DNA of 64,000 nt from NCBI RefSeq assembly GCF_037392515.1, contig NC_090288.1:1240001-1304000 (forward strand). Direction: 5' to 3'. The position numbers and the translations under genes are program-made. The stretch is from Haliotis asinina (lineage: Eukaryota > Mollusca > Gastropoda > Lepetellida > Haliotidae). Under the pieces are notes generated by a model. The model did not search any database and was not told the origin of the DNA. It saw nothing but the letters and a program-made list of their open reading frames with translations. Within the stretch, counting starts at the first letter, position 1. Every line of letters starts with the position of its first letter. Below, piece after piece: positions 899-64,000 of the stretch.

Positions 899-1028
899 GT
901 GGTGACGAATAGAATGATATTCTACGTCAGATATTCTGTATTTCATTGATGCAGAGTGAGTACTGATTAACCCTTCCAGAATATCAGTATGGATGTTCGG
1001 ATACTGACGGAATTCATATTTCTTCCAG

Positions 1029-16018: not shown

Positions 16019-19000
16019 TTGTGCCTGGACATTGATCAGTAGGAGGCTGGAGTTTGATTGTTGGTGACGTGCCTGGACAATGATCAGTAAGAGACTGTAG
16101 TGTGATTGTTGGTGACATGCCTGGACAATGATCAGTAGGAGGCTGGAGTTTGATTGTTGGTGACATGCCTGGACAATGATCAGTAAGAGACTGTAGTGTG
16201 ATTGTTGGTGACGTGCCTGGACAATGATCAGTAGGAGGCTGGAGTTTGATTGTTGGTGACGTGCCTGGACAATGATCAGTAAGAGACTGTAGTGTGATTG
16301 TTGGTGACGTGCCTGGACAATGATCAGTAGGAGGCTGGAGTTTGATTGTTAGTGACATGTCTGGACAATGATCAGTAAGAGACTAGAGTGTGATTGTTAG
16401 TGACATGCCTGGACAATGATCAGTAAGAGACTAGAGTTTGATTGTTGGTGACGTGCCTGGACAATGATCAGTAGGAGGCTGGAATGTCATTGTTGGTGAC
16501 ATTCCTGGACAATGATCAGTAGGATGCTGGGGTGTGATTGTTGGTGACATGCCTGGAGATTGATCAGTAGGATGCTGGGGTGTGATTGCTGGTGACATGC
16601 CTGGACATTGATCAGTAGGATGCTGGGGTGAGATTGTTGGTGACATGCCTCGACAATGATCAGTAAGAGACTGTAGTGTGATTGTTGGTGACGTGCCTGG
16701 ACAATGATCAGTAGGAGGCTGGAGTTTGATTGTTGGTGACATGTCTGGACAATGATCAGTAAGAGACTAGAGTTTGATTGTTGGTGACGTGCCTGGACAA
16801 TGATCAGTAGGAGGCTGGAATGTCATTGTTGGTGACATGCCTGGACAATGATCAGTAAGAGACTAGAGTTTGATTGTTAGTGACATGCCTGGACAATGAT
16901 CAGTAAGAGACTAGAGTTTGATTGTTGGTGACGTGCCTGGACAATGATCAGTAAGAGACTAGAGTGTGATTGTTAGTGACATGCCTGGACAATGATCAGT
17001 AGGAGGCTGGAATGTCATTGTTGGTGACATTCCTGGACAATGATCAGTAGGAGGCTGCAATGTCATTGTTGGTGACATTCCTGGACAATGATCAGTAGGA
17101 TGCTGGGGTGTGATTGCTGGTGACATGCCTGGAGATTGATCAGTAGGATGCTGGGGTGTGATTGTTGGTGACATGCCTGGACATTGATCAGTAGGATGCT
17201 GGGGTGTGATTGTTGGTGACATGCCTGGACATTGATCAGTAGGATGCTGGGGTGTGATTGTTGGTGACATGCCTGGACATTGATCAGTAGGATGCTGGGG
17301 TGAGATTGTTGGTGACATGCCTGGACATTGATCAGTAGGATGCTGGGGTGTGATTGTTGGTGACATGTCTGGACATTGATCAGTAGGATGCTGGGGTCTG
17401 ATTGTTGGTGACATGTCTGGAGATTGATCAGTAGGATGCTGGGGTGTGATTGTTGGTGACATGCCTGGACATTGATCAGTAGGATGCTGGGGTGTGATTG
17501 CTGGTGACATGTCTGGACATTGATCAGTAGGATGCTGGGGTGTGATTGTTGGTGACATGCCTGGACATTGATCAGTAGGATGCTGGGGTGTGATTGTTGG
17601 TGACATGCCTGGACATTGATCAGTAGGATGCTGGGGTCTGATTGTTGGTGACATGCCTGGAGATTGATCAGTAGGATGCTGGGGTGTGATTGTTGGTGAC
17701 ATGCCTGGAGATTGATCAGTAGGATGCTGGGGTGAGATTGTTGGTGACATGCCTGGACATTGATCAGTAGGATGCTGGGGTGTGATTGTTGGTGACATGC
17801 TTGGAGATTGATCAGTAGGATGCTGGGGTGTGATTGTTGGTGACATGCCTGGACATTGATCAGTAGGATGCTGGGGTGTGATTGTTGGTGACATGCCTGG
17901 AGATTGATCAGTAGGATGCTGGGGTGTGATTGTTGGTGACATGCCTGGAGATTGATCAGTAGGATGCTGGGGTGAGATTGTTGGTGACATGCCTGGACAT
18001 TGATCAGTAGGATGCTGGGGTGTGATTGTTGGTGACATGTCTGGAGATTGATCAGTAGGATGCTGGGGTGTGATTGTTGGTGACATGCCTGGAGATTGAT
18101 CAGTAGGATGCTGGGGTGTGATTGTTGGTGACATGTCTGGAGATTGATCAGTAGGATGCTGGGGTGTGATTGTTGGTGACATGTCTGGAGATTGATCAGT
18201 AGGATGCTGGGGTGTGATTGTTGGTGACATGCCTGGACATTGATCAGTAGGATGCTGGGGTGTGATTGTTGGTGACATGCCTGGAGATTGATCAGTAGGA
18301 TGCTGGGGTGTGATTGTTGGTGACATGCCTGGAGATTGATCAGTAGGATGCTGGGGTGAGATTGTTGGTGACATGCCTGGACATTGATCAGTAGGATGCT
18401 GGGGTGTGATTGTTGGTGACATGTCTGGAGATTGATCAGTAGGATGCTGGGGTGTGATTGTTGGTGACATGTCTGGACATTGATCAGTAGGATGCTGGGG
18501 TGTGATTGTTGGTGACATGCCTGGACATTGATCAGTAGGATGCTGGGGTGTGATTGTTGGTGACATGTCTGGACATTGATCAGTAGGATGCTGGGGTGTG
18601 ATTGTTGGTGACATGCCTGGACATTGATCAGTAGGATGCTGGGGTCTGATTGTTGGTGACATGCCTGGACATTGATCAGTAGGATGCTGGGGTGAGATTG
18701 TTGGTGACATGCCTGGACATTGATCAGTAGGATGCTGGGGTGTGATTGCTGGTGACATGCCTGGACATTGATCAGTAGGATGCTGGGGTCTGATTGTTGG
18801 TGACATGCCTGGACATTGATCAGTAGGATGCTGGGGTGTGATTGTTGGTGACATGCCTGGACATTGATCAGTAGGATGCTGGGGTGAGATTGTTGGTGAC
18901 ATGCCTGGACATTGATCAGTAGGATGCTGGGGTGTGATTGTTGGTGACATGTCTGGACATTGATCAGTAGGATGCTGGGGTCTGATTGTTGGTGACATGT

Positions 19001-22000
19001 CTGGACATTGATCAGTAGGATGCTGGGGTGTGATTGTTGGTGACATGTCTGGACATTGATCAGTAGGATGCTGGGGTGTGATTGTTGGTGACATGCCTGG
19101 ACATTGATCAGTAGGATGCTGGGGTGTGATTGTTGGTGACATGTCTGGACATTGATCAGTAGGATGCTGGGGTGAGATTGTTGGTGACATGCCTGGACAT
19201 TGATCAGTAGGATGCTGGGGTGTGATTGTTGGTGACATGCCTGGAGATTGATCAGTAGGATGCTGGGGTGTGATTGTTGGTGACATGTCTGGAGATTGAT
19301 CAGTAGGATGCTGGGGTGTGATTGTTGGTGACATGTCTGGAGATTGATCAGTAGGATGCTGGGGTGTGATTGTTGGTGACATGCCTGGACATTGATCAGT
19401 AGGATGCTGGGGTGTGATTGTTGGTGACATGCCTGGAGATTGATCAGTGGGATGCTGGGGTGTGATTGTTGGTGACATGCCTGGAGATTGATCAGTAGGA
19501 TGCTGGGGTGAGATTGTTGGTGACATGCCTGGACATTGATCAGTAGGATGCTGGGGTGTGATTGTTGGTGACATGTCTGGAGATTGATCAGTAGGATGCT
19601 GGGGTGTGATTGTTGGTGACATGTCTGGACATTGATCAGTAGGATGCTGGGGTGTGATTGTTGGTGACATGCCTGGACATTGATCAGTAGGATGCTGCGG
19701 TGTGATTGTTGGTGACATGTCTGGACATTGATCAGTAGGATGCTGGGGTGTGATTGTTGGTGACATGCCTGGACATTGATCAGTAGGATGCTGGGGTCTG
19801 ATTGTTGGTGACATGCCTGGACATTGATCAGTAGGATGCTGGGGTGAGATTGTTGGTGACATGCCTGGACATTGATCAGTAGGATGCTGGGGTGTAATTG
19901 CTGGTGACATGCCTGGACATTGATCAGTAGGATGCTGGGGTCTGATTGTTGGTGACATGCCTGGACATTGATCAGTAGGATGCTGGGGTGTGATTGTTGG
20001 TGACATGCCTGGACATTGATCAGTAGGATGCTGGGGTGAGATTGTTGGTGACATGCCTGGACATTGATCAGTAGGATGCTGGGGTGTGATTGTTGGTGAC
20101 ATGTCTGGACATTGATCAGTAGGATGCTGGGGTCTGATTGTTGGTGACATGTCTGGACATTGATCAGTAGGATGCTGGGGTGTGATTGTTGGTGACATGT
20201 CTGGACATTGATCAGTAGGATGCTGGGGTGTGATTGTTGGTGACATGCCTGGACATTGATCAGTAGGATGCTGGGGTGTGATTGTTGGTGACATGTCTGG
20301 ACATTGATCAGTAGGATGCTGGGGTGAGATTGTTGGTGACATGCCTGGACATTGATCAGTAGGATGCTGGGGTGTGATTGTTGGTGACATGTCTGGACAT
20401 TGATCAGTAGGATGCTGGGGTGTGATTGTTGGTGACATGCCTGGACATTGATCAGTAGGATGCTGGGGCGTGATTGTTGGTGACATGCCTGGACATTGAT
20501 CAGTAGGATGCTGGGGTCTGATTGTTGGTGACATGCCTGGACATTGATCAGTAGGATGCTGGGGTGTGATTGTTGGTGACATGCCTGGACATTGATCAGT
20601 AGGATGCTGGGGTGTGATTGTTGGTGACATGCCTGGACATTGATCAGTAGGATGCTGGGGTGTGATTGTTGGTGACATGCCTGGACATTGATCAGTAGGA
20701 TGCTGGTGAGATTGTTGGTGACATGCCTGGACATTGATCAGTAGGATGCTGGGATGTGATTGTTGGTGACATGCCTGGACAATGATCAGTAGGATGCTGG
20801 GGTGTGATTGCTGGTGACATGTCTGGACATTGATCAGTAGGATGCTGGGGTGTGATTGTTGGTGACATGCCTGGACAATGATCAGTAAGAGACTAGAGTT
20901 TGATTGTTAGTGACATGCCTGGACAATGATCAGTAAGAGACTAGAGTTTGATTGTTGGTGACGTGCCTGGACAATGATCAGTAAGAGACTAGAGTGTGAT
21001 TGTTAGTGACATGCCTGGACAATGATCAGTAGGAGGCTGGAATGTCATTGTTGGTGACATTCCTGGACAATGATCAGTAGGAGGCTTGAATGTCATTGTT
21101 GGTGACATTCCTGGACAATGATCAGTAGGATGCTGGGGTGTGATTGCTGGTGACATGCCTGGAGATTGATCAGTAGGATGCTGGGGTGTGATTGTTGGTG
21201 ACATGCCTGGAGATTGATCAGTAGGATGCTGGGGTGTGATTGTTGGTGACATGCCTGGACATTGATCAGTAGGATGCTGGGGTGTGATTGTTGGTGACAT
21301 GCCTGGACATTGATCAGTAGGATGCTGGGGTGAGATTGTTGGTGACATGCCTGGACATTGATCAGTAGGATGCTGGGGTGTGATTGTTGGTGACATGTCT
21401 GGACATTGATCAGTAGGATGCTGGGGTGAGATTGTTGGTGACATGCCTGGACATTGATCAGTAGGATGCTGGGGTGTGATTGTTGGTGACATGTCTGGAC
21501 ATTGATCAGTAGGATGCTGGGGTGTGATTGTTGGTGACATGTCTGGACATTGATCAGTAGGATGCTGGGGTGTGATTGTTGGTGACATGCCTGGACATTG
21601 ATCAGTAGGATGCTGGGGTGTGATTGTTGGTGACATGCCTGGACATTGATCAGTAGGATGCTGGGGTCTGATTGTTGGTGACATGCCTGGACATTGATCA
21701 GTAGGATGCTGGGGTGTGATTGCTGGTGACATGCCTGGACATTGATCAGTAGGATGCTGGGGTGTGATTGTTGGTGACATGTCTGGACATTGATCAGTAG
21801 GATGCTGGGGTGTGATTGCTGGTGACATGTCTGGACATTGATCAGTAGGATGCTGGGGTGTGATTGTTGGTGACATGTCTGGACATTGATCAGTAGGATG
21901 CTGGGGTGTGATTGTTGGTGACATGCCTGGACATTGATCAGTAGGATGCTGGGGTGTGATTGTTGGTGACATGTCTGGACATTGATCAGTAGGATGCTGG

Positions 22001-22783
22001 GGTGAGATTGTTGGTGACATGCCTGGACATTGATCAGTAGGATGCTGGGGTGTGATTGTTGGTGACATGCCTGGAGATTGATCAGTAGGATGCTGGGGTG
22101 TGATTGTTGGTGACATGTCTGGAGATTGATCAGTAGGATGCTGGGGTGTGATTGTTGGTGACATGCCTGGAGATTGATCAGTGGGATGCTGGGGTGTGAT
22201 TGTTGGTGACATGCCTGGAGATTGATCAGTAGGATGCTGGGGTGAGATTGTTGGTGACATGCCTGGACATTGATCAGTAGGATGCTGGGGTGTGATTGTT
22301 GGTGACATGTCTGGAGATTGATCAGTAGGATGCTGGGGTGTGATTGTTGGTGACATGTCTGGACATTGATCAGTAGGATGCTGGGGTGTGATTGTTGGTG
22401 ACATGCCTGGACATTGATCAGTAGGATGCTGGGGTGTGATTGTTGGTGACATGTCTGGACATTGATCAGTAGGATGCTGGGGTGTGATTGTTGGTGACAT
22501 GCCTGGACATTGATCAGTAGGATGCTGGGGTCTGATTGTTGGTGACATGTCTGGACATTGATCAGTAGGATGCTGGGGTGTGATTGTTGGTGACATGCCT
22601 GGAGATTGATCAGTAGGATGCTGGGGTGTGATTGCTGGTGACATGTCTGGAGATTGATCAGTAGGATGCTGGGGTGTGATTGTTGGTGACATGTCTGGAC
22701 ATTGATCAGTAGGATGCTGGGGTGTGATTGTTGGTGACATGCCTGGACAATGATCAGTAGGATGCTGGGGTGTGATTGTTTGT
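16019..22783. repeat. 48-bp satellite array, about 141 units, with higher-order structure
   Basis: Core unit begins GATCAGTAGGATGCTGGGGT and continues through GTTGGTGACATGCCTGGACA. Three unit classes occur: AGGAGGCTGGAGTTTG, AAGAGACTGTAGTGTG and AGGATGCTGGGGTGTG. At the left edge (16047-16340) the first two alternate as a 96-bp dimer. In the core a 1152-bp block (24 units) recurs: the GCTGGTG variant at 18748 and 19900, and the GGTCTG variant followed by GTCTGG at 18979 and 20131. The edge cluster near 16931 recurs at 20961, a shift of 84 units minus 2 bp. The 2-bp loss is at about 20706. Because 48 is divisible by three, minus-strand frames stay open for over 3.6 kb in two phases at once; this is not evidence of a gene. 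Confidence 0.97.
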
Positions 22784-23002
22784 GATTGATTGGTTAGCAT
22801 CATGATGACTTAATGTTACGTCCTGTCATAGTCTAAATCCCTTAAATTATAGGCAATAATTTTGAACTGCAATATCATTATGTCACATCGTGCCCAGGTC
22901 GTTTCTTGATGATGAACAAAACTGAATGGTAGGGTCATCTGGGAGTCGGTCTTGAACTGGCGTGTAACAAGTATAACCTCTGTTTCCTCGTCGCATATAT
23001 CC

Positions 23003-24870: not shown

Positions 24871-27800
24871 GTCGACTGGTGACATGGCTGTCGAGGCTGT
24901 GAATAGTTGACGACTGGTGACATGGTTGTAGAGGTTGTCATTAGTTGACGACTGGTGACATGGTTGTAGAGGTTGTCATTAGTTGGCGACTGGTGACATG
25001 GTTGTAGAGGTTGTCATTAGTTAACGACTGGTGACATGGTTGTAGAGGTTGTCATTAGTCGGCGACTGGTGACATGGTTGTAGAGGTTGTCATTAGTTAA
25101 CGACTGGTGACATGGTTGTAGAGGTTGTCATTAGTTGACGACTGGTGACATGGTTGTAGAGGTTGTCATTAGTTGACGACTGGTGACATGGTTGTAGAGG
25201 TTGTCATTAGTTAACGACTGGTGACATGGTTGTAGAGGTTGTCATTAGTTAACGACTGGTGACATGGTTGTAGAGGTTGTCATTAGTTAACGACTGGTGA
25301 CATGGTTGTAGAGGTTGTCATTAGTTAACGACTGGTGACATGGTTGTAGAGGTTGTCATTAGTTAACGACTGGTGACATGGTTGTAGAGGTTGTCATTAG
25401 TTGACGACTGGTGACATGGTTGTAGAGGTTGTCATTAGTTAACGACTGGTGACATGGTTGTAGAGGTTGTCATTAGTTGACGACTGGTGACATGGTTGTA
25501 GAGGTTGTCATTAGTTAACGACTGGTGACATGGTTGTAGAGGTTGTCATTAGTTGGCGACTGGTGACATGGTTGTAGAGGTTGTCATTAGTTAACGACTG
25601 GTGACATGGTTGTAGAGGTTGTCATTAGTCGGCGACTGGTGACATGGTTGTAGAGGTTGTCATTAGTTAACGACTGGTGACATGGTTGTAGAGGTTGTCA
25701 TTAGTTAACGACTGGTGACATGGTTGTAGAGGTTGTCATTAGTTGACGACTGGTGACATGGTTGTAGAGGTTGTCATTAGTTGACGACTGGTGACATGGT
25801 TGTAGAGGTTGTCATTAGTTGACGACTGGTGACATGGTTGTAGAGGTTGTCATTAGTTAACGACTGGTGACATGGTTGTAGAGGTTGTCATTAGTTAACG
25901 ACTGGTGACATGGTTGTAGAGGTTGTCAGTAGTTAACGACTGGTGACATGGTTGTAGAGGTTGTCATTAGTTGACGACTGGTGACATGGTTGTAGAGGTT
26001 GTCATTAGTTGACGACTGGTGACATGGTTGTAGAGGTTGTCATTAGTTAACGACTGGTGACATGGTTGTAGAGGTTGTCATTAGTTAACGACTGGTGACA
26101 TGGTTGTAGAGGTTGTCATTAGTCGGCGACTGGTGACATGGTTGTAGAGGTTGTCATTAGTTAACGACTGGTGACATGGTTGTAGAGGTTGTCATTAGTT
26201 GACGACTGGTGACATGGTTGTAGAGGTTGTCATTAGTTAACGACTGGTGACATGGTTGTAGAGGTTGTCATTAGTTAACGACTGGTGACATGGTTGTAGA
26301 GGTTGTCATTAGTTAACGACTGGTGACATGGTTGTAGAGGTTGTCATTAGTTAACGACTGGTGACATGGTTGTAGAGGTTGTCATTAGTTGACGACTGGT
26401 GACATGGTTGTAGAGGTTGTCAATAGTTAACGACTGGTGACATGGTTGTAGAGGTTGTCATTAGTTGACGACTGGTGACATGGTTGTAGAGGTTGTCATT
26501 AGTTGACGACTGGTGACATGGTTGTAGAGGTTGTCATTAGTTAACAACTGGTGACATGGTTGTAGAGGTTGTCATTAGTTAACGACTGGTGACATGGTTG
26601 TAGAGGTTGTCATTAGTCGGCGACTGGTGACATGGTTGTAGAGGTTGTCATTAGTCGGCGACTGGTGACATGGTTGTAGAGGTTGTCATTAGTTAACGAC
26701 TGGTGACATGGTTGTAGAGGTTGTCATTAGTTAACGACTGGTGACATGGTTGTAGAGGTTGTCATTAGTTAACGACTGGTGACATGGTTGTAGAGGTTGT
26801 CATTAGTTGGCGACTGGTGACATGGTTGTAGAGGTTGTCATTAGTTAACGACTGGTGACATGGTTGTAGAGGTTGTCGTTAGTTGACGACTGGTGACATG
26901 GTTGTAGAGGTTGTCAGTAGTTAACGACTGGTGACATGGTTGTAGAGGTTGTCATTAGTTAACGACTGGTGACATGGTTGTAGAGGTTGTCATTAGTTAA
27001 CGACTGGTGACATGGTTGTAGAGGTTGTCATTAGTTAACGACTGGTGACATGGTTGTAGAGGTTGTCATTAGTTGACGACTGGTGACATGGTTGTAGAGG
27101 TTGTCATTAGTTGACGACTGGTGACATGGTTGTAGAGGTTGTCATTTGTTGACGACTGGTGACATGGTTGTAGAGGTTGTCATTAGTTGACGACTGGTGA
27201 CATGGTTGTAGAGGTTGTCATTAGTTAACGACTGGTGACATGGTTGTAGAGGTTGTCATTAGTTGACAACTGGTGACATGGCTGTAGAGGTTGTCATTAG
27301 TTAACGACTGGTGACATGGTTGTAGAGGTTGTCATTAGTTGACGACTGGTGACATGGCTGTAGAGGTTGTCATTAGTTGGCGACTGGTGACATGGTTGTA
27401 GAGGTTGTCATTAGTTGACGACTGGTGACATGGTTGTAGAGGTTGTCATTAGTCGGCGACTGGTGACATGGTTGTAGAGGTTGTCATTTGTTAACGACTG
27501 GTGACATGGTTGTAGAGGTTGTCATTAGTTGGCGACTGGTGACATGGCTGTAGAGGTTGTCATTAGTTGACGACTGGTGACATGGTTGTAGAGGTTGTCA
27601 TTAGTTGACGACTGGTGACATGGTTGTAGAGGTTGTCATTAGTCGGCGACTGGTGACATGGTTGTAGAGGTTGTCATTTGTTAACGACTGGTGACATGGT
27701 TGTAGAGGTTGTCATTAGTTGGCGACTGGTGACATGGCTGTAGAGGTTGTCATTAGTTGACGACTGGTGACATGGTTGTAGAGGTTGTCATTAGTTAACG

Positions 27801-27938
27801 ACTGGTGACATGGTTGTAGAGGTTGTCATTAGTTAACGACTGGTGACATGGTTGTAGAGGTTGTCATTAGTTGACGACTGGTGACATGGTTGTAGAGGTT
27901 GTCATTAGTTGGCGACTGGTGACATGGTTTCAGAGGGG
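24871..27938. repeat. 38-bp minisatellite, about 80 units
   Basis: Unit CGACTGGTGACATGGTTGTA followed by GAGGTTGTCATTAGTTAA. Units are almost identical except at the junction, which reads GTTAAC, GTTGAC, GTTGGC or GTCGGC. A minority carry GGCTG or CATTTG changes. A 190-bp block of five units recurs at 27451 and 27641. Minus-strand frames contain stops; no coding signal. Confidence 0.97.
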
Positions 27939-30950: not shown

Positions 30951-33900
30951 GTGCATAGCTACTGTGAGTTAGTGTGTTAGTGAATATATACAGAGCCACT
31001 GTGTGTACATTAGTCACTCTACACAGAGATGATGTATGTACATTAGTCACTCTATAAAGAGCTACTGTGTGTACATTAGTCACTCTACACAGATATGATG
31101 TATGTACATTAGTCACTCTATAAAGAGATACTGTGTGTACATTAGTCACTCTACACAGATATGATGTATGTACATTAGTCACTCTACACAGAGATACTGT
31201 GTGTACATTAGTCACTCTACACAGATATGATGTATGTACATTAGTCACTCTATAAAGAGCTACTGTATGTACATTAGTCACTTATACAGAGATACTGTGT
31301 GTACATTAGTCACTCTATAAAGATATACTGTGCGTACGTTAGTCACTCTATAAAGAGATACTGTGTGTACATTAGTCACTTATACAGAGATACTGTGCGT
31401 ACATTAGTCACTGTATACGGAGATACTGTGCGTACATTAGTCATTGTATACAGAGATACTGTGTGTACATTAGTCACTTATACAGAGATACTGTGTGTAC
31501 ATTAGTCACTCTATAAAGATATACTGTGCGTACGTTAGTCACTCTATAAAGAGATACTGTGTGTACATTAGTCACTTATACAGAGATACTGTGCGTACAT
31601 TAGTCACTGTATACGGAGATACTGTGTGTACATTAGTCATTGTATACAGAGATACTGTGTGTACATTAGTCACTCTATAAAGATATACTGTGCGTACGTT
31701 AGTCACTCTATAAAGAGATACTGTGTGTACATTAGTCACTTATACAGAGATACTGTGTGTACATTAGTCACTGTATACAGAGATGCTGTGTGTACATTAG
31801 TCACTGTATACAGACCTACTATGTGTACTTTAGTCACTGTATACAGAGCTACTGTGTGTACATTAGTCACTGTATACAGAGATACTGTGTGTACATTAGT
31901 CACTTATACAGAGCTACTGTTTGTACATTAGTCACTATTCAGAGCTACTGTGTGTACATTAGTCACTGTATACAGAGCTACAGTGTGTACATTAGCCACT
32001 GTATACAGAGGTAATGTGTGTGCATTAGTCACTTATACAGAGCTACTGTTTGTACATTAGTCACTATTCAGAGCTACTCTGGGTACTTTAGTCACTATAT
32101 ACAGAGCTACTGAGTGAACAATAGTCACTGTATACAGAGCTACTCTGTGTACTTTAGTCACTGTATACAGAGACACTGTGTGTACATTAGTCACTGTATA
32201 CAGAGATAATGTGTGTACATTAGTCACTTATACAGAGCTACTGTGTGTACATTAGTCACTATTCAGAGCTAATCTGTGTACTTTAGTCACTGTATACAGA
32301 GCTACTGTGTGTACAATAGTCACTGTATACAGAGCTACTCTGTGTACTTTAGTCACTGTATACAGAGACACTGTGTGTACATTAGTCACTGTATACAGAG
32401 ATACTGTGTGTACTTTAGTCACCTATACAGAGATACTGTGTGTACATTAGTCACTCTATAAAGATATACTGTGCGTACGTTAGTCACTCTATAAAGAGAT
32501 ACTGTGTGTACATTAGTCACTTATACAGAGATACTGTGTGTACATTAGTCACTCTACACAGATATGATGTATGTACATTAGTCACTCTATAAAGAGCTAC
32601 TGTGTGTACATTAGTCACTTATACAGAGATACTGTGTGTACATTAGTCACTCTGTAAAGATATACTGTGCGTACGTTAGTCACTCTATAAAGAGATACTG
32701 TGTGTACATTAGTCACTTATACAGAGATACTGTGTGTACATTAGTCACTGTATACGGAGATACTGTGCGTACATTAGTCATTGTATACAGAGATACTGTG
32801 TGTACATTAGTCACTTATACAGAGATACTGTGTGTACATTAGTCACTCTATAAAGATATACTGTGCGTACGTTAGTCACTCTATAAAGAGATACTGTGTG
32901 TACATTAGTCACTTATACAGAGATACTGTGTGTACATTAGTCACTGTATACAGAGATGTTGTGTGTACATTAGTCACTTATACAGAGCTACTCTGTGTAC
33001 ATTAGTCACTTATACAGAGATACTGTGTGTACATTAATCACTATTCAGAGCTACTCTGTGTACTTTAGTCACTGTATACAGAGACACTGTGTGTACATTA
33101 GTCACTGTATACAGAGATAATGTGTGTACATTAGTCACTTATACAGAGCTACTGTGTGTACATTAGTCACTATTCAGAGCTAATCTGTGTACTTTAATCA
33201 CTGTATACAGAGCTACTGTGTGTACAATAGTCACTGTATACAGAGCTACTCTGTGTACATTAGTCACTGTATACAGAGATAATGTGTGTACATTGGTCAC
33301 TTATACAGAGCTACTCTGTGTACATTAGTCACTATTCAGAGCTACTCTGTGTACTTTAGTCACTGTATACAGAGCTACTGTGTGTACATTAGTCACTCTA
33401 TACAGAGCTACTCTGTTTACATTAGTCACTTATACAGAGACACTGTGTGTACATTAGTCACTGTATGCAGAGATAATGTGTGTACATTAGTCACTTATAG
33501 AGAGCTACTATGTGTACATTAGTCACTATTCAGAGCTACTCTGTGTACTTTAGTCACTGTATACAGAGCTATTGTGTGTACATTAGTCACTCTATACAGA
33601 GCTACTGTGTGTACATTAGTCACTGTATACAGAGGTAATGTGTGTACATTAGTCACTTATACAGAGCTACTGTGTGTACATTAGTCACTATTCAGAGCTA
33701 CTCTTTGTACATTAGTCTCTCTATACAGAGATAATGCGTGTACATTAGTCACTTATACAGAGCTACTGTGTGCACATTAGTCACTCTATACAGAGCTACT
33801 CTGTTTACATTAGTCACTTATACAGACATAATGTGTGTCCATTAGTCACTGTATACAGAGATACTGTGTGTACATTAGTCACTGTATACAGAGCTACTCT

Positions 33901-34182
33901 GTGTACATTAGTCACTATTCAGAGCTACTCTGTGTACATTAGTCTCTGTATACAGATCTACTGTGTGTACATTTCTCACTGTATACAGAGCTACTGTGTG
34001 TACATTAGTCACTGTATACAGACCTACTCTGTGTACATTAGTCACTGTATATAGAGCTACTATGTGTATATTAGTCACTGTATAAAGAGCTTCTATGTGT
34101 ATGTTAGTCCTTGTATACAGAGCTAGTATACATTAGTCACTGTATACAGAGCTTATGTGCGTTCGTTAGTCACTGAATACAG
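30951..34182. repeat. 33-bp minisatellite with several subfamilies, about 98 units
   Basis: Unit CATTAGTCACTGTATACAGA plus GCTACTGTGTGTA, with 31-, 32- and 33-bp versions (CTTATACAGAG, TATTCAGAG, CTCTATAAAGATATACTGTG). A six-unit block of 196 bp recurs, for example the CTATAAAGATATACTGTGCG word at about 31313, 31509, and again near 32454, 32650, 32846. The left end (30951-31270) is built from a different pair of alternating variants with GATATGATGTATGTAC. Confidence 0.97.
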
Positions 34183-37274: not shown

Positions 37275-38298
37275 CGTCGAAGGGTTTTCAGGCTCCACGA
37301 CCACAAAGAACCACCAGTGTGTTGTATAACCCAGGGTTTTCAGGCTCCACAACCACAAAGAACCACCAGCGTGTTGTATAATCCAGGGTTTTCAGGCTCC
37401 ACAACCACAAAGCACCGCCAACGTGTTGTATAATCCAGGGTTTTCAGGCTCTTCGACCACAAAGAATCACCAACGTGTTGTGTATTATAATCCAGGGTTT
37501 CAGGCTCTACGGCCACAAAGAACCACCAACGTGTTGTATAACCCAGTGTTTCCAGCTCTACAACCACAAAGAACCATGCACCAACGTGTTGTATAATCCA
37601 GGGTTTTCAGGCTCTACGACCACAAAGAACCACCAACGTGTTGTATAATCCAGGGTTTTCAGGCTCTACGACCACAAAGCACCACCAACGTGTTGTATAA
37701 CCCAGGGTTTCCAGCTCTACGACCACTAAGAACCATGCACCAACGTGTTGTATAATCCAGGGTTTTCAGGCTCTACGACCACAAAGAACCACCAACGTGT
37801 TGTATAATCCAGGGTTTTCAGGCTCTACGACCACAAAGCACCACCAACGTGTTGTATAATCCAGGGTTTTCAGGCTCTACGACCACAAAGCACCACCAAC
37901 GTGTTGTATAACCCAGGGTTTCCAGCTCTACGACCACTAAGAACCATGCACCAACGTGTTGTATAATCCAGGGTTTTCAGGCTCTACGACCACAAAGAAC
38001 CACCAACGTGTTGTATAATCCAGGGTTTTCAGGCTCTACGACCACAAAGCACCACCAACGTGTTGTATTATCCAGGGTTTTCAGGCTCTACGACCACAAA
38101 GCACCACCAACGTGTTGTATAACCCAGAGTTTCCAGCTCTACGACCACAAAGAACCACCAGTGTGTTGTATAATCCAGGGTTTTCAGGCTCTACGACCAC
38201 AAAGAACCACCAACGTGTTGTATAATCCAGGGTTTTCAGGCTCTACGACCACAAAGAACCACCAACGTGTTGTATAATCCAGGGTTTTCAGGCTCTAC
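37275..38298. repeat. 52-bp minisatellite in intron 1 of the EF-hand gene, about 20 units
   Basis: Unit TCCAGGGTTTTCAGGCTCTA followed by CGACCACAAAGAACCACCAA and CGTGTTGTATAA. Shortened and lengthened units (CCAGCTCTAC; ACCATGCACCAACG) recur as a longer block, for example near 37555, 37732 and 37945. Confidence 0.95.
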
Positions 38299-38929
38299 CA
38301 GCAACGTATCGTAGAATCAAGACAGAAATAGACAAGTGCATTATCATCTCCAAACCAATACTTGCCATTGCTAGTTAGGAGATGGTGTTAATACACAAAG
38401 TGGGAGGGAGTGGGGAATGGTCCCACACTGGCGTAAAAATATTCTGTTCTCACTATGATATCGGTTGATGTTCAGTGGAGGTCAAATCGGGTGGCTAAGA
38501 ATGTGAAGGACTATTATTTATTATTTGGCTTGTCAAAGTCCTGTACAAACGCATGCAAAGTGAGGGCGAGAATTGTCATGCTTCAAAGATCAACCATTGA
38601 CGTTACGTTGAACTGGCCCCTTCTCAAAAGATCCCACAGCCAATTTCGCTCTGGATGGAGATTCGGTGCATTCCAGGATTTTGATTGTTGTTGATGATGC
38701 GACCGTGGTGTTTGTACGAAGATGTCTCAACCGGACGTAGAGATCCTGGGCGGCGGTGGTAACTTTAGGTTAAAAGAAGTGTAGCGTTATGCCGTCGGCA
38801 ACCATACCCCAACGTGTTGGGATTCAGCATGGATTGGTTTGTGCCAAACATTTTCCTAAAATTCAATTTGTTTTTTCATTGTTGTTGTTTGAAGAGTATA
38901 TCACGTCGGTAACGTCAACAACAGTCGAC

Positions 38930-41900
38930 ATGCGTCTGCTGCTGGTGTTTCTGCTCCTGGGACTCATCCTGCTGCCGGACGCCGAGGGTTGGTTTATTCG
39001 ACGGCGGTGGTTTGGACGGGTAAAGAGAATTGGCAGGAGGATATACAGAATATACAGAAAATACAAGAACATTCAAAGAGGTAAAACTGTAATAGTCTAC
39101 TAGGCAAGGAAAGATATGGCCTCCTTAGAGCCGCCAATTGGATTGGTGGATTCGTACCCACTTTCCCACGCATACCCACCCACCAGCACCACCACCATCC
39201 CCAACTCCTCCTCCCCCCTCCCCCCCCCCCCCCCCCCCCCATCCCCCCATCTTTCTGAAACGAACCTGTTATTTATTTTACGAGCATTTTGAAAGATTAA
39301 CAGTAGTCCAGCCTTGTTTCCGTAAGGCTTGAGCTTTACTGTCGTGTTTGTCAGCTGTCGCACATCGGTTTTCCAAAAGAGCAGAATGTCCGAATATCAT
39401 TTCGGGTGTACCCGGTGGGAAATTGTTGGAATACTGCTAAACCGTTCTCTTTTCGTTGAAGGTCACTACATATACGGACGTGATGCCAACGACCTTGACA
39501 TCAATAAGGATGGCATAATTGACCAATCAGAGGCCAAGAAAGTTTTTGATGCGCGCGCAGTGAAGGACTTTCTTCCTCTTATTGATGAAGACGGTAAGTG
39601 ACTGTTTATTATCACACATGAATGTTAATCATTGTCTGATCACCATGCTCATAATACATCTAACCCGGACTTGTCTGGACACGACGCTAGTAACACATCT
39701 ATCCTGGGTGTGACCCTGGACGTAACTGGTCACCCTGCTAATATCACATCTACCATGGGCGTTACTGGTCACCGTACTGGTATCACATCTACCATGGGCG
39801 TTACTGGTCACCCTGCTACAATCACATCTACAATTGGCGTTACTGGTCACCCTGCCAGTATCACATCTACCGTGGGCGTTACTGGTCACCCTTCAAGTAT
39901 CACATCTACCATGGGCGTTACTGGTCACCCTGCTGGTATCACATCTACCATGGGCGTTACTGGTCACCCTGCTACAATCACATCTACCACTGGCGTCACT
40001 GGTCACCCTGCTAGTATCACATCTACCATGGGCGTTACTGGTCAACCTCCTGGTATCACATCTACCATGGGCGTTACTGGTCACCCTGCTGGTATCACAT
40101 CTACCATGGGCGTTACTGGTCACCCTCCTAGTATCACATCTACCATGGCCGTTACTGGTCACCCTGATAGTATCACATCTACCATGGGCGTTACTGGTCA
40201 TCCTGCTAGTATCACATCTACCATTGGCGTTACTGGTCACCCTGCTAGTATCACATCTACCATGAGCGTTACTGGTCACCCTGCAAGTTGCACATCTACC
40301 ATGGGCGTTACTGTTCACCCTGCTCGTAACACATCTACCCTGGGCGTTGCTGGTCACCCTGCTAGTATCACATCTACCATGGGCGTTACTGGTCACCGTA
40401 CTGGTATCACATCTACCATGGGCGTTACTCGTCACCCTACTAGTGTATCTACCATTGGCGTTACTGGTCACCATGATAGTATCACATCTACCATGGGCGT
40501 TACTGGTCACCATCACAGTATCACATCTACCATGGGCGTTACTGGTCACCCGGCTGGTATCACATCTACCATGGGAGTTCCTGGTCACCCTCCTAGTATC
40601 TCTACGATTGGCGTTACTGGTCACCTTGATAGTTTTACATCTACTATGGGCGTTACCGGTGACCCTGCTAGTATCACATATACCATGGGTGTTACTGGTC
40701 ACCCTCCTAGTATCTCTACCATGGGCGTTACTGGTCACCCTGATGGTTTTACATCTTCTATGGGCGTTACCGGTCACCCTGTTAGTATCACATCTACCAT
40801 GGGTGTTACTGGTCACCCTGCTAGTATCACAACTACCATGGGCGTTACCGGTCACCCTATTAGTATCACATCTACCATGGGCGTTACTGGTCACCCTACT
40901 GGTGTCACATCTACCATGGGCGTTACTGGTCACCCTTCAAGTATCACATCTACCATGGGCGTTACTGGTCACCCTGCTAGCATCACATCTACCATAGGCC
41001 TTAATGGTCACCCTGCTGGTATCACATCTACCATGGGCGTTACTGGCAACCCTGACAGTATCACATCTACCATGGGCATTTCCGGTCAACCTCCTGGTAT
41101 CACATCTACTATGGGCGTTACTGGTAACCCTGGTAGTATTACATCTACCATGGGCGTTACTGTTCACCCTGCAAGTATCACATCTACCATGGGTGTTGCT
41201 GGTCACCCTCCTAGTATCACATCTACCATGGGCGTTACTGGTAACCCTGCTGGTATCACATCTACCATGGGCGTTTCCGGTCAACCTCCTGGTATCACAT
41301 CTACCATGGGCGTTACTGGTAACCCTGCTGGTATCACATCTACCATGGGCGTTGCTGGTCATCCTTCTAGTATCACATCTACCATGGGTGCTACTGGTCA
41401 CCCTGCTAGTATCACATCTGCCATGGGCGTTGCTGGTCACCCTGCAAGTATCACATCTACCATGGGCGTTATAGGTCACCCTCCTACAATCACATCTACC
41501 ATGGGCGTTACTGGTCACCCTAATAGTATCACATCCACCATTGGCGTTTCTGGTCACCCTGCTAGTATCACATCTACCATGGGCGTTTCTGGTCACCCTC
41601 CTCGTAACACATCTGCCATGGGCGTATCTGGTCACCCTGCTAACATCACATCTACCATGGGCGTTACTCGTCACCCTACTAGTATCTCTACCATTGGCGT
41701 TACTGGTCACCCTGCTACAATCACATCTACCATTGGCGTTACTGGTCACCCTGCTAGTATCACATCTACCATGGACGTTACTGGTCACCCTTCAAGTATC
41801 ACATCTACCATGGGCGTTACTGGTCACCCTGCTGGTATCACATCTACCATGGGCGTTACTGGTCACCCTCCTAGTATCACATCTACCATGGGCGTTACTG

Positions 41901-44900
41901 GTCACCCTGCTAGTATCTACCATGGGCGGTACTGGTCACCCTGATAGTATCACATGTACCATGTGTGTTACTGGTCACCCTACTAGTATCTCTACTATCA
42001 TCGTTACTGGTCACCCTGCTAGTATCACATCTACCATAGGCGTTACTGGTCACCCTGATAGTATCACATCTACCATGGGTGTTACTGGTCACCCTGATAG
42101 TATCACATCTACCATGGGCGTTACTGGTCACCCTGCTAGTATCACATCTACGATGGGCGTTACTGATCACCCTCCTAGTCGCACATCGACCATGGGCGTT
42201 ACTCGTCACCCTACTAGTATCACATCTACCATGGGTGTTCCTAGTCACCCTGCTAGTATCACATCTACCATGGGCGTTTCTGGTCACCCTACTAGTATCT
42301 CTACTATCATCGTTACTGGTCACCCTGCTAGTATCACATCTACCATAGGCGTTACTGGTCACCCTGATAGTATCACATCTACCATGGGTGTTACCTGTCA
42401 CCCTGCTTGCATCACATCTACCATGGGCGTTGCTGGTCACCCTGCTGGTATCACAACTACAATGGGCGTTACTGGTAACCCTGCTGGTATTACATCTACC
42501 CTGGGAGTTACTGGTCACCCTGCTGGTATCACATCTACCATGGGCGTTACTGGTCACCCTGCTAGTATCACATCTACCATGGGCGTTACTGGTCACCCTG
42601 ATAGTATCACATCTACGATGGGCGTTACTCGTCACCCTGATAGTGTCACATCTACCATGGGCGTTACTGGTCACCCTGCTAGTATCACATCTACCATGGG
42701 CGTTACTAGTCACCCTACTAGCATCACATCTACCATGGGTGTTCCTGGTCACCCTGCTAGTATCACATCTACCATGGGCGTTACTAGTCACCCTACTAGT
42801 ATCACATCTACCATGGGTGTTGCTGGTCACCCTGCTAGTATCACATCTACCATGGGCGTTACTGGTCACCCTGCTAGTATGACAACTACCATGGGCGTTA
42901 CTGGTAACCCTGCAAGTATCACATCTACCATGGGCGTTACTGGTCACCCTGCAAGTATCACATCTACCATGGGCGTTACTGGTCACCCTGCTAGTATCAC
43001 ATCTACTATGGGCGTTTCTGGTCACACTGCTAGTATCACATCTACCATGGATGTTACTGGTCACCCTGCTAGTATCACATCTACCATGGACGTTGTTGTT
43101 CACCCTGCTGGTATGACAACTCCCATGGGCGTTACTGGTAGCCCTGCTGGTATCACATCTACCCTGGGTGTTACTGGTCACCCTGCTAGTATCACATCTA
43201 CCATGGGCGTTACTGGTCACCCTGCTAGTCTCACATCTACCATGGGCGTTACCGGTCACCCTGATAGTATCACATCTACCACGGGCGTTACTGGTCACCC
43301 TGCTGGTATCACAACTACCATGGGCGTTACCGGTAACCCTGCTAGTATCACATCTACCCTTTGAGTTACTGGTCACCCTGCTAGTCTCACATCTACCATG
43401 GGCGTTACCGGTCACCCTGATAGTCTCACATCTACTATGGACGTTGCTGGTCACCCTGCTAGTATCACATCTACCATGGGCGTTGCTCGTCACCCTGCTA
43501 GTATCACATCTACCATGGGCGTTACTGGTCACCCTGCTCGTAACACATCTACCATGGGCGTTCCTCATCACCCTGCTAGTATCACATCTACCATGGGCGT
43601 TACTGGTCACCCTGCTCGTGTTACATCTACCATGGGCGTTGCCGGTCACCCTGCTAGTATCTCTACCATGGGCGTTACTGGTCATTCTGCTGGTATCACA
43701 TCTACCATGGGCGTTCCTGGTCACCCTGCTAGTATCTCTACCATTGGCGTTTCTGGTCACCCTGGTAGTATCACATCTACCATTGGCGTGACTGGTCACC
43801 CTGCAAGTATCACATCTACTATGGGCGTTACTGGTCACCCTGATAGTATCACATCTGCTTTGGGCGTTACTGGTAACCCTGCTAGTATCACATCTACTAT
43901 GGGCGTTACCGGTCACCCTGTTAGTATCACATCTACCATGGGCGTTACTGGTTACCCTGCTAGTATCACATCTACCATTGGCGTTACTGGTCACCCTGCT
44001 GGTATCACAACTACCATGGGCGTTACTGGTCACCTTGCTAGTATCACATCTACCCTGGACGTAACTGGTCACCCTGCTAGTATCACATCTACCATGGGCG
44101 TTTCTGGTCACCCTGCTCGTAACACATCTACCATGGGCGTTACTGGTCACCCTGCTGATATCTCTACCATGGGCGTTACTGGTCACCCTGCTGGTATCTC
44201 TACCATGGGCGTTACTGGTCACCCTGGTAGTATCTCTGCCATGGGCGTTACTGGTCACCCTGCTAGTGTCACATCTACCATGGGCGTTACTGGTCACCCT
44301 GCTAGTATCTCTACCATGGGCGTTACTGGTCACCTTGCTGACAACACATCTACCCTGGTCGTGACTATTCACCGTACTGGCAACACATCTACCCTGAACG
44401 TGACTGGTCACCATGCTAGTAACACATTTACAGTGGACGTGACTGGTCACCATGCTAGTAACACATTTACAGTGGACGTGACTGGTCACCCTGCTGGTAG
44501 CACATTTACACTGGACGGTACTGGTCACCCAGCTGGCAACACATCTACCCTGGACGTGACTGGTCACCATGCTAGTAACACATTTAAACTGGACGCATTC
44601 TGTTATTTTACTGTATTAATACATTTTGTGTATCGCATTATTATATTTTATTGTAGTATTTCATTGTATTATTGTGTTCTAATCTTATATTGTAATGTTG
44701 TAATGTTGTAATATTGGCAGGCAATTCTGAAGTGAGCGTCGATGAGTTCACCAGGACCATGCGAGGCCTGCTGACTATTGATGCAGGTAGCCCAGCTATA
44801 AGCATATCAGAGTTCATACTCCAGTGAATGTTCCTGTAACACCACAGTCGACTAAACTGAAACAATATTGATCCTAAAATTAGTCAAGTCTTGACAAGAC

Positions 44901-45218
44901 AAACCAGTAATTGAAATCACTGAGTAAAGCGGAAAGACGCTATCAAGGATAATCAAGGATAACATGGTTAAGGATAACAGGCACTGTGACCAACGAAACC
45001 TCCATCCAACGTACTCACTCGAAATACGTGTACGTATGAATGTCTCCTTTGTTATGTATTGGGTGCTATGTACCTATCCACTCACTGCTGTCAGATCAAT
45101 GTCTCCTTTGTTATGTATTGGGTGTTATGTACCTATCCACTCTCTGCTGTCAGATCCGGATCTGAGACGTGCTGCTGAAGAGGACGAAGACGTTGACGAC
45201 TTCTACTCCAACGAATAG
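38930..45218 (+). CDS. Secreted precursor: cationic aromatic segment, two EF-hands, acidic tail
   Basis: Coding exons 38930-39080, 39462-39593, 44721-44786 and 45154-45218 (stop TAG), all introns phase 1, total 414 nt, 137 residues. Residues 1-20 are a signal peptide (MRLLLVFLLLGLILLPDAEG). Residues 21-50 form a segment with 10 Arg, 3 Lys, 3 Trp/Phe pairs or singles, 4 Tyr and no acidic residue, basic at nearly every third or fourth position, as in amphipathic helices. Residues 63-74 are a canonical EF-hand loop (DINKDGIIDQSE). Residues 92-103 are a second one (DEDGNSEVSVDE) with Ser in place of the usual Gly at position 6. The tail is acidic (AAEEDEDVDDFYSNE). The exon 2 acceptor is taken at 38893-38894; the ATG is the first in the exon. 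An intron of over 5 kb splits EF-loop 2 within codon 95. I do not recognise a named family. A cationic host-defence peptide or mineral-matrix protein are both possible (inference). Confidence 0.87.
39160..39245. repeat. C-rich tract in intron 2 of the EF-hand gene
   Basis: CACC/CCCA-rich sequence ending in an uninterrupted run of more than 20 C at about 39217-39240. Its length in the assembly may be unreliable. Confidence 0.9.
39690..44600. repeat. 39-bp minisatellite in intron 3 of the EF-hand gene, about 125 units
   Basis: Unit GTTACTGGTCACCCTGCTAG followed by TATCACATCTACCATGGGC. Variants of 36 bp lack one codon (AGTATCTCTACC). Most units hold an NcoI-type CCATGG and a GGTCACC palindrome. 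Because 39 is divisible by three, frames stay open on both strands (plus: GVTGHPASITSTM and LLVSHLPWALLVT; minus: TSNAHGRCDTSRV), up to 886 codons. The right end (44330-44590) uses a diverged form with ACACATTTACAGTGGACGTG. It sits about 100 bp after the exon 3 donor. Confidence 0.97.
45039..45156 (+). repeat. 59-bp tandem duplication that includes the exon 5 acceptor
   Basis: AATGTCTCCTTTGTTATGTA through CTGCTGTCAGATC occurs twice, at 45039-45097 and 45098-45156. Both copies end with a pyrimidine tract and CAG, so two acceptors exist, after 45094 and after 45153. Only the downstream one keeps the acidic C-terminus. Confidence 0.95.
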
Positions 45219-45245
45219 TGACCTCACTTCACACTTACCTGAGCA

Positions 45246-45251
45246 AATAAA
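45246..45251 (+). terminator. Polyadenylation signal of the EF-hand gene
   Basis: AATAAA 27 bp after the stop codon, followed by GTGATTACTTCGTTCGG and a GT-containing stretch. This gives a very short 3' UTR. Confidence 0.75.
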
Positions 45252-45259
45252 CGCAGTAA

Positions 45260-46080
45260 CTGACCGCAACGTCATGTGATTACTTCGTTCGGACACCGGT
45301 TTGTGCCCCTTGCCCGTTTCAGAATCCTCTGTCTGATTGTTGACTCGAGTGCCAAGTTAGGATGGCGCAACTACCATACTCTTCCTTCAAGGCGTCACTT
45401 GTAACTGGCATCCTCATCACTTCCGGTCTACATGAAGTTGCCCATAATTAACTCACTCATTCACTCTCTCATCCATCTACCCACCAGCTCACCCGCTAAC
45501 TCACCCATCCTCTCACCTTTTGGAAAGAGTTCACATTATCGTCACAATGTCGTTCTGCTTATTAGAGATTTTAACCGGTTTCAATGGTGACGATGGCGAC
45601 ATGTTGAAAACATACTCCAACGTAATTATTACAATTGTTCACCTTATATTTTCAGATGTAATTTCTAAATAAGAATTGTAAATTGGAAAGGTTTTGAAAC
45701 ATGTACATGTCGGAAAGCGCACGTAAAATCATGAAAGCATGCCAACGAACTCGTTGGTGAAAACAGAAAACATGAGAACCGTGATGTACACAAATATTAT
45801 TATTGTACGAAATTGGTAAAAGTAGCCAACTTCGTCCTTCATGTGTATTACCGGTGGAAGAAAACAGAAATGTAGCTGTTCTTGCATGAAGAACTTCTGA
45901 TGGTCATACGTCAACATGAAATCCTTCCAGTGGGGTGCGGGTAGCGGGATAACAGTAGGTCAGGAACGACGTCACACAGAGCCGATCGTGTCGTGTACAC
46001 TGATTGGGTTGATTGTACAGTCACAACTAGAGGGTCGCTTGTCGGATCTGTGTATGATCCATTAACAAGGTGCCCGTCTT
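45260..46080. other. Intergenic stretch
   Basis: No exon recognised. 45450-45520 is CTCA/CACC-rich and may be the eroded tail of a SINE. Confidence 0.4.
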
Positions 46081-61452: not shown

Positions 61453-61659
61453 AATGGCTTGCAAACACAAACCAAACTGTGTATCCTGTAGTTGAGGGTA
61501 TCCTGGGGGTGAGGGTATCCATTAGTTGAGGGTATTCTGGAGTTGAGGATACCCTGAAGATGAGGGTACTCTGAAGCATTAGGGTGTCCTGTAGTTTAGG
61601 GTATTCTAGAGTTGAGTGTATCCTGGCGTTGACGGAAATCCTGTAGTTGAGGGTATACT

Positions 61660-64000
61660 TGTTTCTGCTCCACCCTGTAACCACCATGCAGTACACACAA
61701 ACATCTCGGGTGGCGGGCATGGGGTGGGTACCTTGTTTCTGCTCCACCCTGTAACCACCATGCAGTACACACAAACATCTCGGGTGGCGGGCATGGGGTG
61801 GGTACCTTGTTTCTGCTCCACCCTGTAACCACCATGCAGTACACACAAACATCTCGGGTGGCGGGCATGGGGTGGGCACCTTGTCTCTGCTCCACCCTGT
61901 AACCACCATGCAGCACATACAAGCATCTCGGGTGGCGGGCATGGGGTGGGTACCTTGTCTCTGCTCCACCCTGTAACCACCATGCAGCACATACAAGCAT
62001 CTCGGGTGGCGGGCATGGGGTGGGTACCTTGTCTCTGCTCCACCCTGTAACCACCATGCAGCACATACAAGCATCTCGGGTGGCGGGCATGGGGTGGGTA
62101 CCTTGTCTCTGCTCCACCCTGTAACCACCATGCAGCACACACAAGCATCTCGGGTGGCGGACATGGGGTGGGTACCTTGTCTCTGCTCCACCCTGTAACC
62201 ACCATGCAGTACACACAAACATCTCGGGTGGCGGGCATGGGGTGGCTACCTTGTCTCTGCTCCACCCTGTAACCACCATGCAGCACATACAAGCATCTCG
62301 GGTGGCGGGCATGGGGTGGCTACCTTGTCTCTGCTCCACCCTGTAACCACCATGCAGCACATACAAGCATCTCGGGTGGCGGGTATGGGGTGGGTACCTT
62401 GTCTCTGCTCCACCCTGTAACCACCATGCAGTACACACAAACATCTCGGGTGGCGGGCATGGGGTGGGTACCTTGTTTCTGCTCCACCCTGTAACCACCA
62501 TGCACTACACACAAACATCTCGGGTGGCGGGCATGGGGTGGCTACCTTGTCTCTGCTCCACCCTGTAACCACCATGCACTACACACAAACATCTCGGGTG
62601 GCGGGCATGGGGTGGGTACCTTGTTTCTGCTCCACCCTGTAACCACCATGCAGTACACACAAACATCTCGGGTGGCGGGCATGGGGTGGCTACCTTGTCT
62701 CTGCTCCACCCTGTAACCACCATGCAGCACATACAAGCATCTCGGGTGGCGGGCATGGGGTGGGTACCTTGTCTCTGCTCCACCCTGTAACCACCATGCA
62801 GCACACACAAGCATCTCGGGTGGCGGGCATGGGGTGGGTACCTTGTCTCTGCTCCACCCTGTAACCGCCATGCAGCACATACAAGCATCTCGGGTGGCGG
62901 GCATGGAGTGGGTACCTTGTCTCTGCTCCACCCTGTAACCACCATGCAGCACACACAAGCATCTCGGGTGGCGGGCATGGGGTGGGTACCTTGTCTCTGC
63001 TCCACCCTGTAACCACCATGCAGCACATACAAGCATCTCGGGTGGCGGGCAAGGGGTGGGTACCTTGTCTCTGCTCCACCCTGTAACCACCATGCAGCAC
63101 ATACAAGCATCTCGGGTGGCGGGCAAGGGGTGGGTACCTTGTCTCTGCTCCACCCTGTAACCACCATGCAGCACATACAAGCATCTCGGGTGGCGGGCAT
63201 GGGGTGGGTACCTTGTCTCTGCTCCACCCTGTAACCACCATGCAGCACATACAAGCATCTCGGGTGGCGGGCAAGGGGTGGGTACCTTGTCTCTGCTCCA
63301 CCCTGTAACCACCATGCAGCACATACAAGCATCTCGGGTGGCGGGCATGGGGTGGGTACCTTGTCTCTGCTCCACCCTGTAACCACCATGCAGCACATAC
63401 AAGCATCTCGGGTGGCGGGCATGGGGTGGGTACCTTGTTTCTGCTCCACCCTGTAACCACCATGCAGCACATACAAGCATCTCGGGTGGCGGGTATGGGG
63501 TGGGTACCTTGTCTCTGCTCCACCCTGTAACCACCATGCAGTACACACAAACATCTCGGGTGGCGGGCATGGGGTGGGTACCTTGTTTCTGCTCCACCCT
63601 GTAACCACCATGCAGTACACACAAACATCTCGCGTGGCGGGCATGGGGTGGGTACCTTGTCTCTGCTCCACCCTGTAACCACCATGCAGCACACACAAAC
63701 ATCTCGGGTGGCAGGCATGGGGTGGGTACCTTGTCTCTGCTCCACCCTGTAACCACCATGCAGCACATACAAACATCTCGGGTGGCGGGCATGGGGTGGG
63801 TACCTTGTCTCTGCTCCACCCTGTAACCACCATGCAGCACATACAAACATCTCGGGTGGCGGGCATGGGGTGGGTACCTTGTCTCTGCTCCACCCTGTAA
63901 CCACCATGCAGTACACACAAACATCTCGGGTGGCGGGCATGGGGTGGCTACCTTGTCTCTGCTCCACCCTGTAACCACCATGCAGCACATACAAGCATCT
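61660..64000. repeat. 74-bp minisatellite, at least 31 units, running off the window
   Basis: Unit GGGTACCTTGTCTCTGCTCC, ACCCTGTAACCACCATGCAG, CACATACAAGCATCTCGGGT, GGCGGGCATGGGGT. Two main allelic words alternate irregularly: GCACATACAAGC and GTACACACAAAC. As 74 is not divisible by three, each minus-strand frame passes through all phases of the unit, and all three are free of stops. This produces three overlapping open frames of over 430 codons. Confidence 0.97.

Follow-up and report, generated by a model that had tools for sequence, protein, structure and literature searches.

A 64,000-nucleotide stretch of the Haliotis asinina genome (contig NC_090288.1, positions 1,240,001 to 1,304,000, forward strand; hereafter the window) carries a gene whose predicted product joins a strongly cationic segment to an acidic EF-hand region. 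Rebuilding this window gene from the sequence gave four exons, three phase-1 GT/AG introns and an in-frame product of 137 residues with a TAG stop and no cysteine (Table 1), reproducing exactly the exons and product proposed by the first-pass annotation, which had been made from the letters alone. Chance is an insufficient explanation for the model, since 15 paralogues elsewhere in the genome can each be modelled in full from four corresponding exons in the same frames. Intron 1 interrupts codon 51 after its first base, a few codons ahead of a Gly-Arg site. The plan of exon 1 is identical in the paralogues read on contigs C4, C17, C9 and C6, and exon 2 matches GALVGKRSIDDLD.. of the paralogues in the alignment. 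No second copy of the gene was found in the window by tblastn, which returned the four exons and, next best, a match with an expect value (E) of 0.27.

Intron 2 is 5127 base pairs (bp) long in the window gene, compared with 1170 bp in the C4 paralogue, and open reading frames of 771, 629 and 901 residues run through it. We rejected these frames as a trivial outcome of its 39-base (13-codon) repeat: because 39 is a multiple of 3, frames through the repeat can stay open, up to 901 residues, without meaning. A 59-bp tandem duplication at 45039-45156 (96% matches) duplicates the splice acceptor of exon 4; the upstream acceptor copy near 45094 was rejected because it breaks the frame of the tail, while the second copy is in frame (by eye).

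Table 1. Features of the window gene and its surroundings, in window positions
Feature	Position	Strand	Remarks
Exon 1	38930..39080	+	signal peptide and cationic segment; donor GT at 39081, phase 1
Signal peptide, residues 1-20	38930-38989	+	by-eye call; sequence MRLLLVFLLLGLILLPDAEG
Cationic segment, residues 21-50	38990-39079	+	within exon 1
Exon 2	39462..39593	+	peptide end GHYIY, Gly-Arg site, first EF loop, start of second loop
Gly-Arg site	39476-39481	+	exon 2
First EF loop	39497-39532	+	exon 2; DINKDGIIDQSE
Second EF loop	39584-39593 and 44721-44746	+	split over exons 2 and 3; DEDGNSEVSVDE
39-bp minisatellite, about 126 copies	39713..44583	+	fills most of intron 2; outside the product
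Exon 3	44721..44786	+	remainder of second EF loop
Exon 4	45154..45218	+	acidic C-terminal tail DPDLRRAAEEDEDVDDFYSNE and stop
AATAAA polyadenylation signal	45246..45251	+	28 bases past the stop
Fasciclin-domain frame	971-1321	+	Pfam, 57 bits
Fasciclin-domain frame	1658-2014	+	Pfam, 21 bits, just below the cut-off of 22
Chitin-binding CBM_14 frame, two stretches	6916-7257	-	Pfam, 78 bits

Residues 21-50 contain 13 Lys/Arg (10 Arg, 3 Lys), no Asp/Glu and no cysteine, with an isoelectric point (pI) of 12.0; the composition confirms the first-pass count of 13 basic and no acidic residues. Residues 51-137 contain 25 Asp/Glu and 10 Lys/Arg (pI 4.1), and the two EF-hand loops that the first-pass annotation placed in this acidic remainder both retain their calcium-ligand (acid) positions, so that calcium binding by the pair is likely as judged from its loops. 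The whole product has 24 Lys/Arg and two EF loops. Pfam searches at E up to 10 matched five models, all of calcium-binding EF-hand types and all under their curated cut-offs, the best being EF-hand_1 (22.6 bits versus a cut-off of 25.4). Among four paralogue precursors scanned, the cut-off was passed by C9_1176 (30.6) and C9_2801 (25.8) and missed by C9_1096 (19.0) and the partial C9_3493 (12.4). We rejected identity as a calmodulin relative: among the 60 of 151 PDB matches listed at E up to 10, most were calmodulins; their E values start at 0.004, and the alignments are confined to the EF part.

A search with the product across the genome (1.14 Gb, 159 contigs) returned at least 72 matches and placed a related EF-hand exon at no fewer than 46 places at E up to 0.03, with 19 on C9, 25 on C6 and one each on C4 and C17. 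This count was made by hand and is a lower bound, leaving aside six matches at E of 0.665 or above, one at C6 57.5 Mb (E 0.24) and one on C11 (E 9.5). The C9 places comprise 15 at 1.05-1.28 Mb, the last of which is the window gene, one at 2.80 Mb and three at 3.49-3.52 Mb; those on C6 lie at 38.3-38.4 Mb (15) and 53.0-53.4 Mb (10). Over 7.8 kb the C4 and C17 regions show 99% identity, and the assembly may have represented a single locus twice. Of 19 gene models, 16, including the window gene, have all four exons; in the other three one exon was not located (exon 4 for C9_1186 and C9_2801, exon 3 for C9_3493). Five copies spaced about 5 kb apart at C9 1175993-1197289 share an identical predicted peptide, and by their sequences represent a recent tandem expansion. 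At C9 3.515 Mb, on the reverse strand, the C9 3.49 gene recurs as a copy whose cationic part is interrupted by a stop, likely a pseudogene. On contig C8, one stretch (54.1-54.7 Mb) holds more than 40 EF-hand_7 matches; this array was rejected as a set of relatives, as the two loci examined were both calmodulin-like. Scanning eight paralogue sequences against Pfam at E up to 1 yielded no model of antimicrobial-peptide type.

We read the junction between the two halves in 24 of the places (19 gene models and five C6 genes); in the gene at C6 38.336 the start codon lies beyond the stretch examined. All 24 genes have the order cationic peptide, Gly-(Lys)-Arg, EF-hand, and in all of them the first EF loop conforms to the pattern. 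The glycine directly precedes Lys-Arg in 19 genes (nine at C9 1.05-1.15, five at C9 1.18-1.20, C9 2.80, C9 3.49 and three at C6 38) and Arg in the other five (the window gene, C4, C17 and two at C6 53). Gly-Lys-Arg is the classic motif at which convertases cut, after which the basic residues are trimmed and the peptide is amidated, and we infer that the shared Gly-(Lys)-Arg is the usual signature of cutting followed by C-terminal amidation. Gly/Arg ends have been interpreted in this way for the myticalins of mussels (PMC5577615, in the excerpt compared). The pro-regions, or the parts of them read, carry net charges of -8 to -20. An acidic tail is present in the window gene, C4, C17 and the larger C9 group, while the modelled tail of C9_1176 and its copies is not acidic.

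The cationic part is strongly basic throughout the genes read. These genes predict 13 distinct peptides, of which we measured ten; the other three are close variants, two from the C9 array and one from C6 38.336. The ten have net charges of +5 to +18 with at most one acid each. The predicted peptides are WFIRRRWFGRVKRIGRRIYRIYRKYKNIQRGHYIY for the window gene, WGRRRWIRRAWRIARRVYRVYKVYKHIRGHYLY for C4, WRRFRLRVRGRRLLRTAGRVYRVYRRYKHIINPAVGALV and WGRRRRRRRRGWFRFRRVVRGVGRAYRIYRRYSHIINPAISAI for the C9 array, WRRRRRRRRWIRFRGRRLFRRVARVYRFYRNNKAVIHTVIGAF for C9 2.80, WRRVRWRRVARAAATAAKIGIAVL for C9 3.49, WRRRRRRWIRVRGGKVLTGLAVASRLGLI and LFRRRRRWIRIRAGKVLTGLGVAAKLGLI for C6 38, and GWWRRVTRWIGEQWRKHKGAIIGTA.. 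and GRWWRGVKQGARQIWRDHKGTIIRTG.. for C6 53, the last two being exon-1 parts with uncertain ends. For each, the helical moment of the best 18-residue stretch was compared with 2000 shuffles. The observed moment is reached by 7 shuffles for the window gene, 18 for C4, and 22 and 19 for the C6 53 peptides, which are clearly amphipathic; the C9 array peptides are borderline (124 and 78), and amphipathicity is absent at C9 2.80 (444), C9 3.49 (760) and C6 38 (1749 and 1596). Two of these four non-amphipathic peptides consist of an Arg-rich head and a mostly neutral tail. The first-pass annotation had suggested a structure prediction of the N-terminal segment. AlphaFold2 modelled residues 21-50 alone as one helix spanning residues 4-29 of 30 (mean per-residue confidence, pLDDT, 75.5; template-modelling score, pTM, 0.28), although a model from a single sequence is weak evidence.

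Compared with its C4 paralogue, the window gene is identical at 20/20 signal, 17/28 cationic, 54/58 EF and 22/22 tail residues (116-137), and the cationic and EF parts differ in this respect (Fisher p 4.6e-4). Three pairs from within the C9 group give a ratio of non-synonymous to synonymous change (dN/dS) of 0.24-0.27 for the cationic part and 0.07-0.11 for the EF part. The data do not support positive selection on the cationic part, as dN/dS is below 1 in every pair and, against C4, equal to that of the EF part. In sequence, the cationic part is less constrained to a moderate degree at most, with its charge retained.

Signal, cationic peptide and anionic partner also make up the styelins and clavanins of tunicates, which have an aromatic-rich cationic helix and a partner without an EF-hand; the comparison with them drawn by the first-pass annotation stays an analogy. 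Closer layouts come from mussels, as described in excerpts of the papers cited here. The mytimycin precursor consists of a signal, a 54-residue antifungal peptide with 12 cysteines, a dibasic site and a 75-residue EF-hand extension whose meaning its authors state to be unknown (PMC8004829). An EF-hand in the anionic role, which the first-pass annotation had called unusual, is therefore shared with these precursors. Signal, peptide and C-terminal EF-hand extension are all present in the window gene, and a defence role would follow by analogy; the likeness extends to an anionic EF-hand extension behind a basic cleavage site and to membership of a multigene family. Where mytimycin has its dibasic site, the window gene has Gly-Arg and 19 of the 24 genes read have Gly-Lys-Arg. 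Unlike mytimycin with its 12 cysteines, the present peptides are cysteine-free, linear, rich in Trp and Arg, and end in a glycine for amidation; they also come from another mollusc class, and the comparison is one of layout, not of EF-hand homology.

The peptide itself more closely resembles the myticalins and modiocalins, linear Arg-rich peptides with a pI above 11, a phase-1 intron, an anionic extension and a variable mature part (PMC5577615). The window gene shares with them a linear peptide of pI above 11 (12.0 here) with Arg above 10% between signal and anionic extension, a phase-1 intron shortly past the peptide, Gly/Arg ends predicting amidation and a mature part that varies. It differs in that their anionic extension has no EF-hand, a feature that the excerpt of the mytimycin paper (PMC8004829) sets apart from other mussel peptides, and in that MRLLLVFLLLGLILLPDAEG, by eye, does not follow their signal consensus MKGXXLLLLTIXXALCMIXECEG (PMC5577615). 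This family pairs a peptide of the myticalin kind with a carrier of the mytimycin kind. Within the literature compared, descriptions of antimicrobial peptides with an EF-hand pro-region are limited to mytilid mussels.

Taken together, the product is probably secreted, and with moderate confidence we consider the window gene to encode the precursor of a host-defence (antimicrobial-type) peptide. The best reading of the family is an expanded set of amidated, Trp/Arg-rich host-defence-type peptides carried on an acidic EF-hand pro-region. The first-pass annotation had put forward a candidate host-defence or matrix precursor; its precursor layout of signal, cationic and anionic parts is well supported by Gly-(Lys)-Arg in all genes read, while defence itself we infer. 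In the proposed pathway, the signal peptide would be removed at about ..DAEG|W, and the precursor would fold with its acidic, presumably calcium-binding EF-hand pair neutralizing the +13 peptide. A proprotein convertase would then cut after Gly-Lys-Arg (Gly-Arg in the window gene), the basic residues would be trimmed, and the exposed glycine would be converted to a C-terminal amide, yielding approximately W21..Y55-NH2, of 35 residues and net charge +13. The freed peptide, helical in its middle part, could bind and disrupt microbial membranes. Family growth by tandem duplication would provide each animal with many differing cationic peptides on one type of carrier.

Several observations weigh against this reading. 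Amphipathicity is not family-wide, with fewer than 25 of 2000 shuffles reaching the observed moment in four peptides, 78-124 in two and 444-1749 in four. The site of the window gene is monobasic (YGR|D) and weaker than Gly-Lys-Arg, basic pairs inside the cationic part offer a convertase other places to cut, and 22 of the at least 46 places fall outside the junction reading. Several phase-1 splice sites are possible in some exons, and we chose the pair agreeing with other genes; at C9 3.49 an alternative acceptor would lengthen the peptide, with Gly-Lys-Arg present either way. The second EF loop fits in 17 of 19 models, and the EF-hand exons at C9 3.505 and 3.520 Mb have no exon 1 in the roughly 3.7 kb upstream.

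The contrast between the two halves is likewise uneven across comparisons. Against C9_1096, conservation of the cationic part (13/29) is similar to that of the EF part (29/58) and the signal (8/20), and a second distant paralogue gives 12/29, 30/58 and 10/20, respectively. The first-pass annotation had named lack of conservation in the basic segment as evidence against itself, and here the outcome is mixed: this segment is the least conserved part against C4, the closest paralogue, is on a par with the EF part in distant paralogues, and stays strongly basic in the genes read. Other results speak against a plain arms-race account. Against C4, dN/dS is about 0.50 in the cationic and 0.49 in the EF part, the latter from few changes. 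Synonymous divergence from C4 is higher in exon 1 (14/38) than in exons 2-4 (4/55; p 9e-4); the flanks are 75% identical upstream and 91% downstream (38297-46000 compared). This split would be explained if the 3′ half had undergone conversion or if the two halves differed in age.

In a rival reading, the amidated peptide would be a signal, and the gene would encode a neuropeptide or peptide-hormone precursor whose EF-hand tail sorts it into calcium-rich granules, maybe as in pleurin/HCS2. Gly-Lys-Arg sites are typical of neuropeptides too, and Bogdanov (1998), to go by the title, reportedly described a gene from a snail that combines putative neuropeptides with an EF-hand region. The gastropod precedent is pleurin, whose precursor has amidated peptides directly after the signal and an EF-hand region; in the excerpt compared (PMC8398477) these are PRX-amide peptides, of which the gastropods it names have three or four copies. 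That hallmark ending is absent, by eye, from the ten predicted peptides here, and a family at 46 or more places, mostly in arrays, with long Arg runs is unlike a receptor ligand, making a neuropeptide role unlikely. The biomineral alternative raised by the first-pass annotation would have an uncut shell-matrix or calcium-handling secreted protein, with its basic helix on matrix or mineral and its EF-hands on calcium. Fasciclin and chitin-binding CBM_14 exons, from families often met in matrices, lie in the same window. Pacific abalone moreover expresses in its mantle Hdh-SMP5, a secreted acidic protein with EF-hands that is of comparable length (134 residues; PMC10741955, in excerpt). We rejected it as the abalone counterpart, because it has three EF-hands and 9 basic residues, too few for a cationic block, versus two and 24 here. 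Gly-(Lys)-Arg throughout the genes read points to a cut between the halves, with which an uncut mineral protein is poorly compatible; we retain this alternative at lower likelihood, as improbable.

Abalone also deploy cationic, fast-evolving sperm proteins of the Egg_lysin group, and the peptides could be reproductive secretions acting at sperm or egg coat, after lysin and sp18. The same genome has six Pfam Egg_lysin matches on C14 (none occur in 14 control genomes), one of its reading frames aligns to a sperm lysin of solved structure (E 1.8e-11, about half identical), and the present family is likewise cationic and duplicated. Lysins are known from abalones and related vetigastropods, and by these matches the host is most likely a vetigastropod. 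Neither the product nor the eight paralogue sequences scanned match Egg_lysin in Pfam, however, and we know of no EF-hand pro-region in lysin-type reproductive proteins; we regard a reproductive role as very unlikely.

Within the host-defence reading, the EF-hand pair may have a further function. Calmodulin is known to clasp cationic, amphipathic helices, melittin being an example. By analogy, and only tentatively, the pair might act as a calcium-set safety catch: the calcium-loaded lobe would grip its own precursor's peptide in calcium-rich granules, also after cutting, and release it on calcium removal. One catch would then serve dozens of varying peptides, as a gastropod counterpart of the mytimycin design. 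Next to that of the mussels, a second and larger molluscan family in which an EF-hand carrier bears a peptide of another kind suggests that this pairing is a general design that arose twice or is old in molluscs. The 24 genes, with their 13 distinct predicted peptides (some nearly alike), are natural variants for testing the role of the EF-hand. No gastropod family of cationic peptides with EF-hands was among the matches listed in the open PubMed Central literature, subscription journals and protein databases being outside this scope, and six sequence strings searched for occur in no paper of that library.

Long minisatellites with periods of 33-74 bases are abundant in the window, for example at 16022-22785, 24873-27936, 30987-34182 and 61658-64000.

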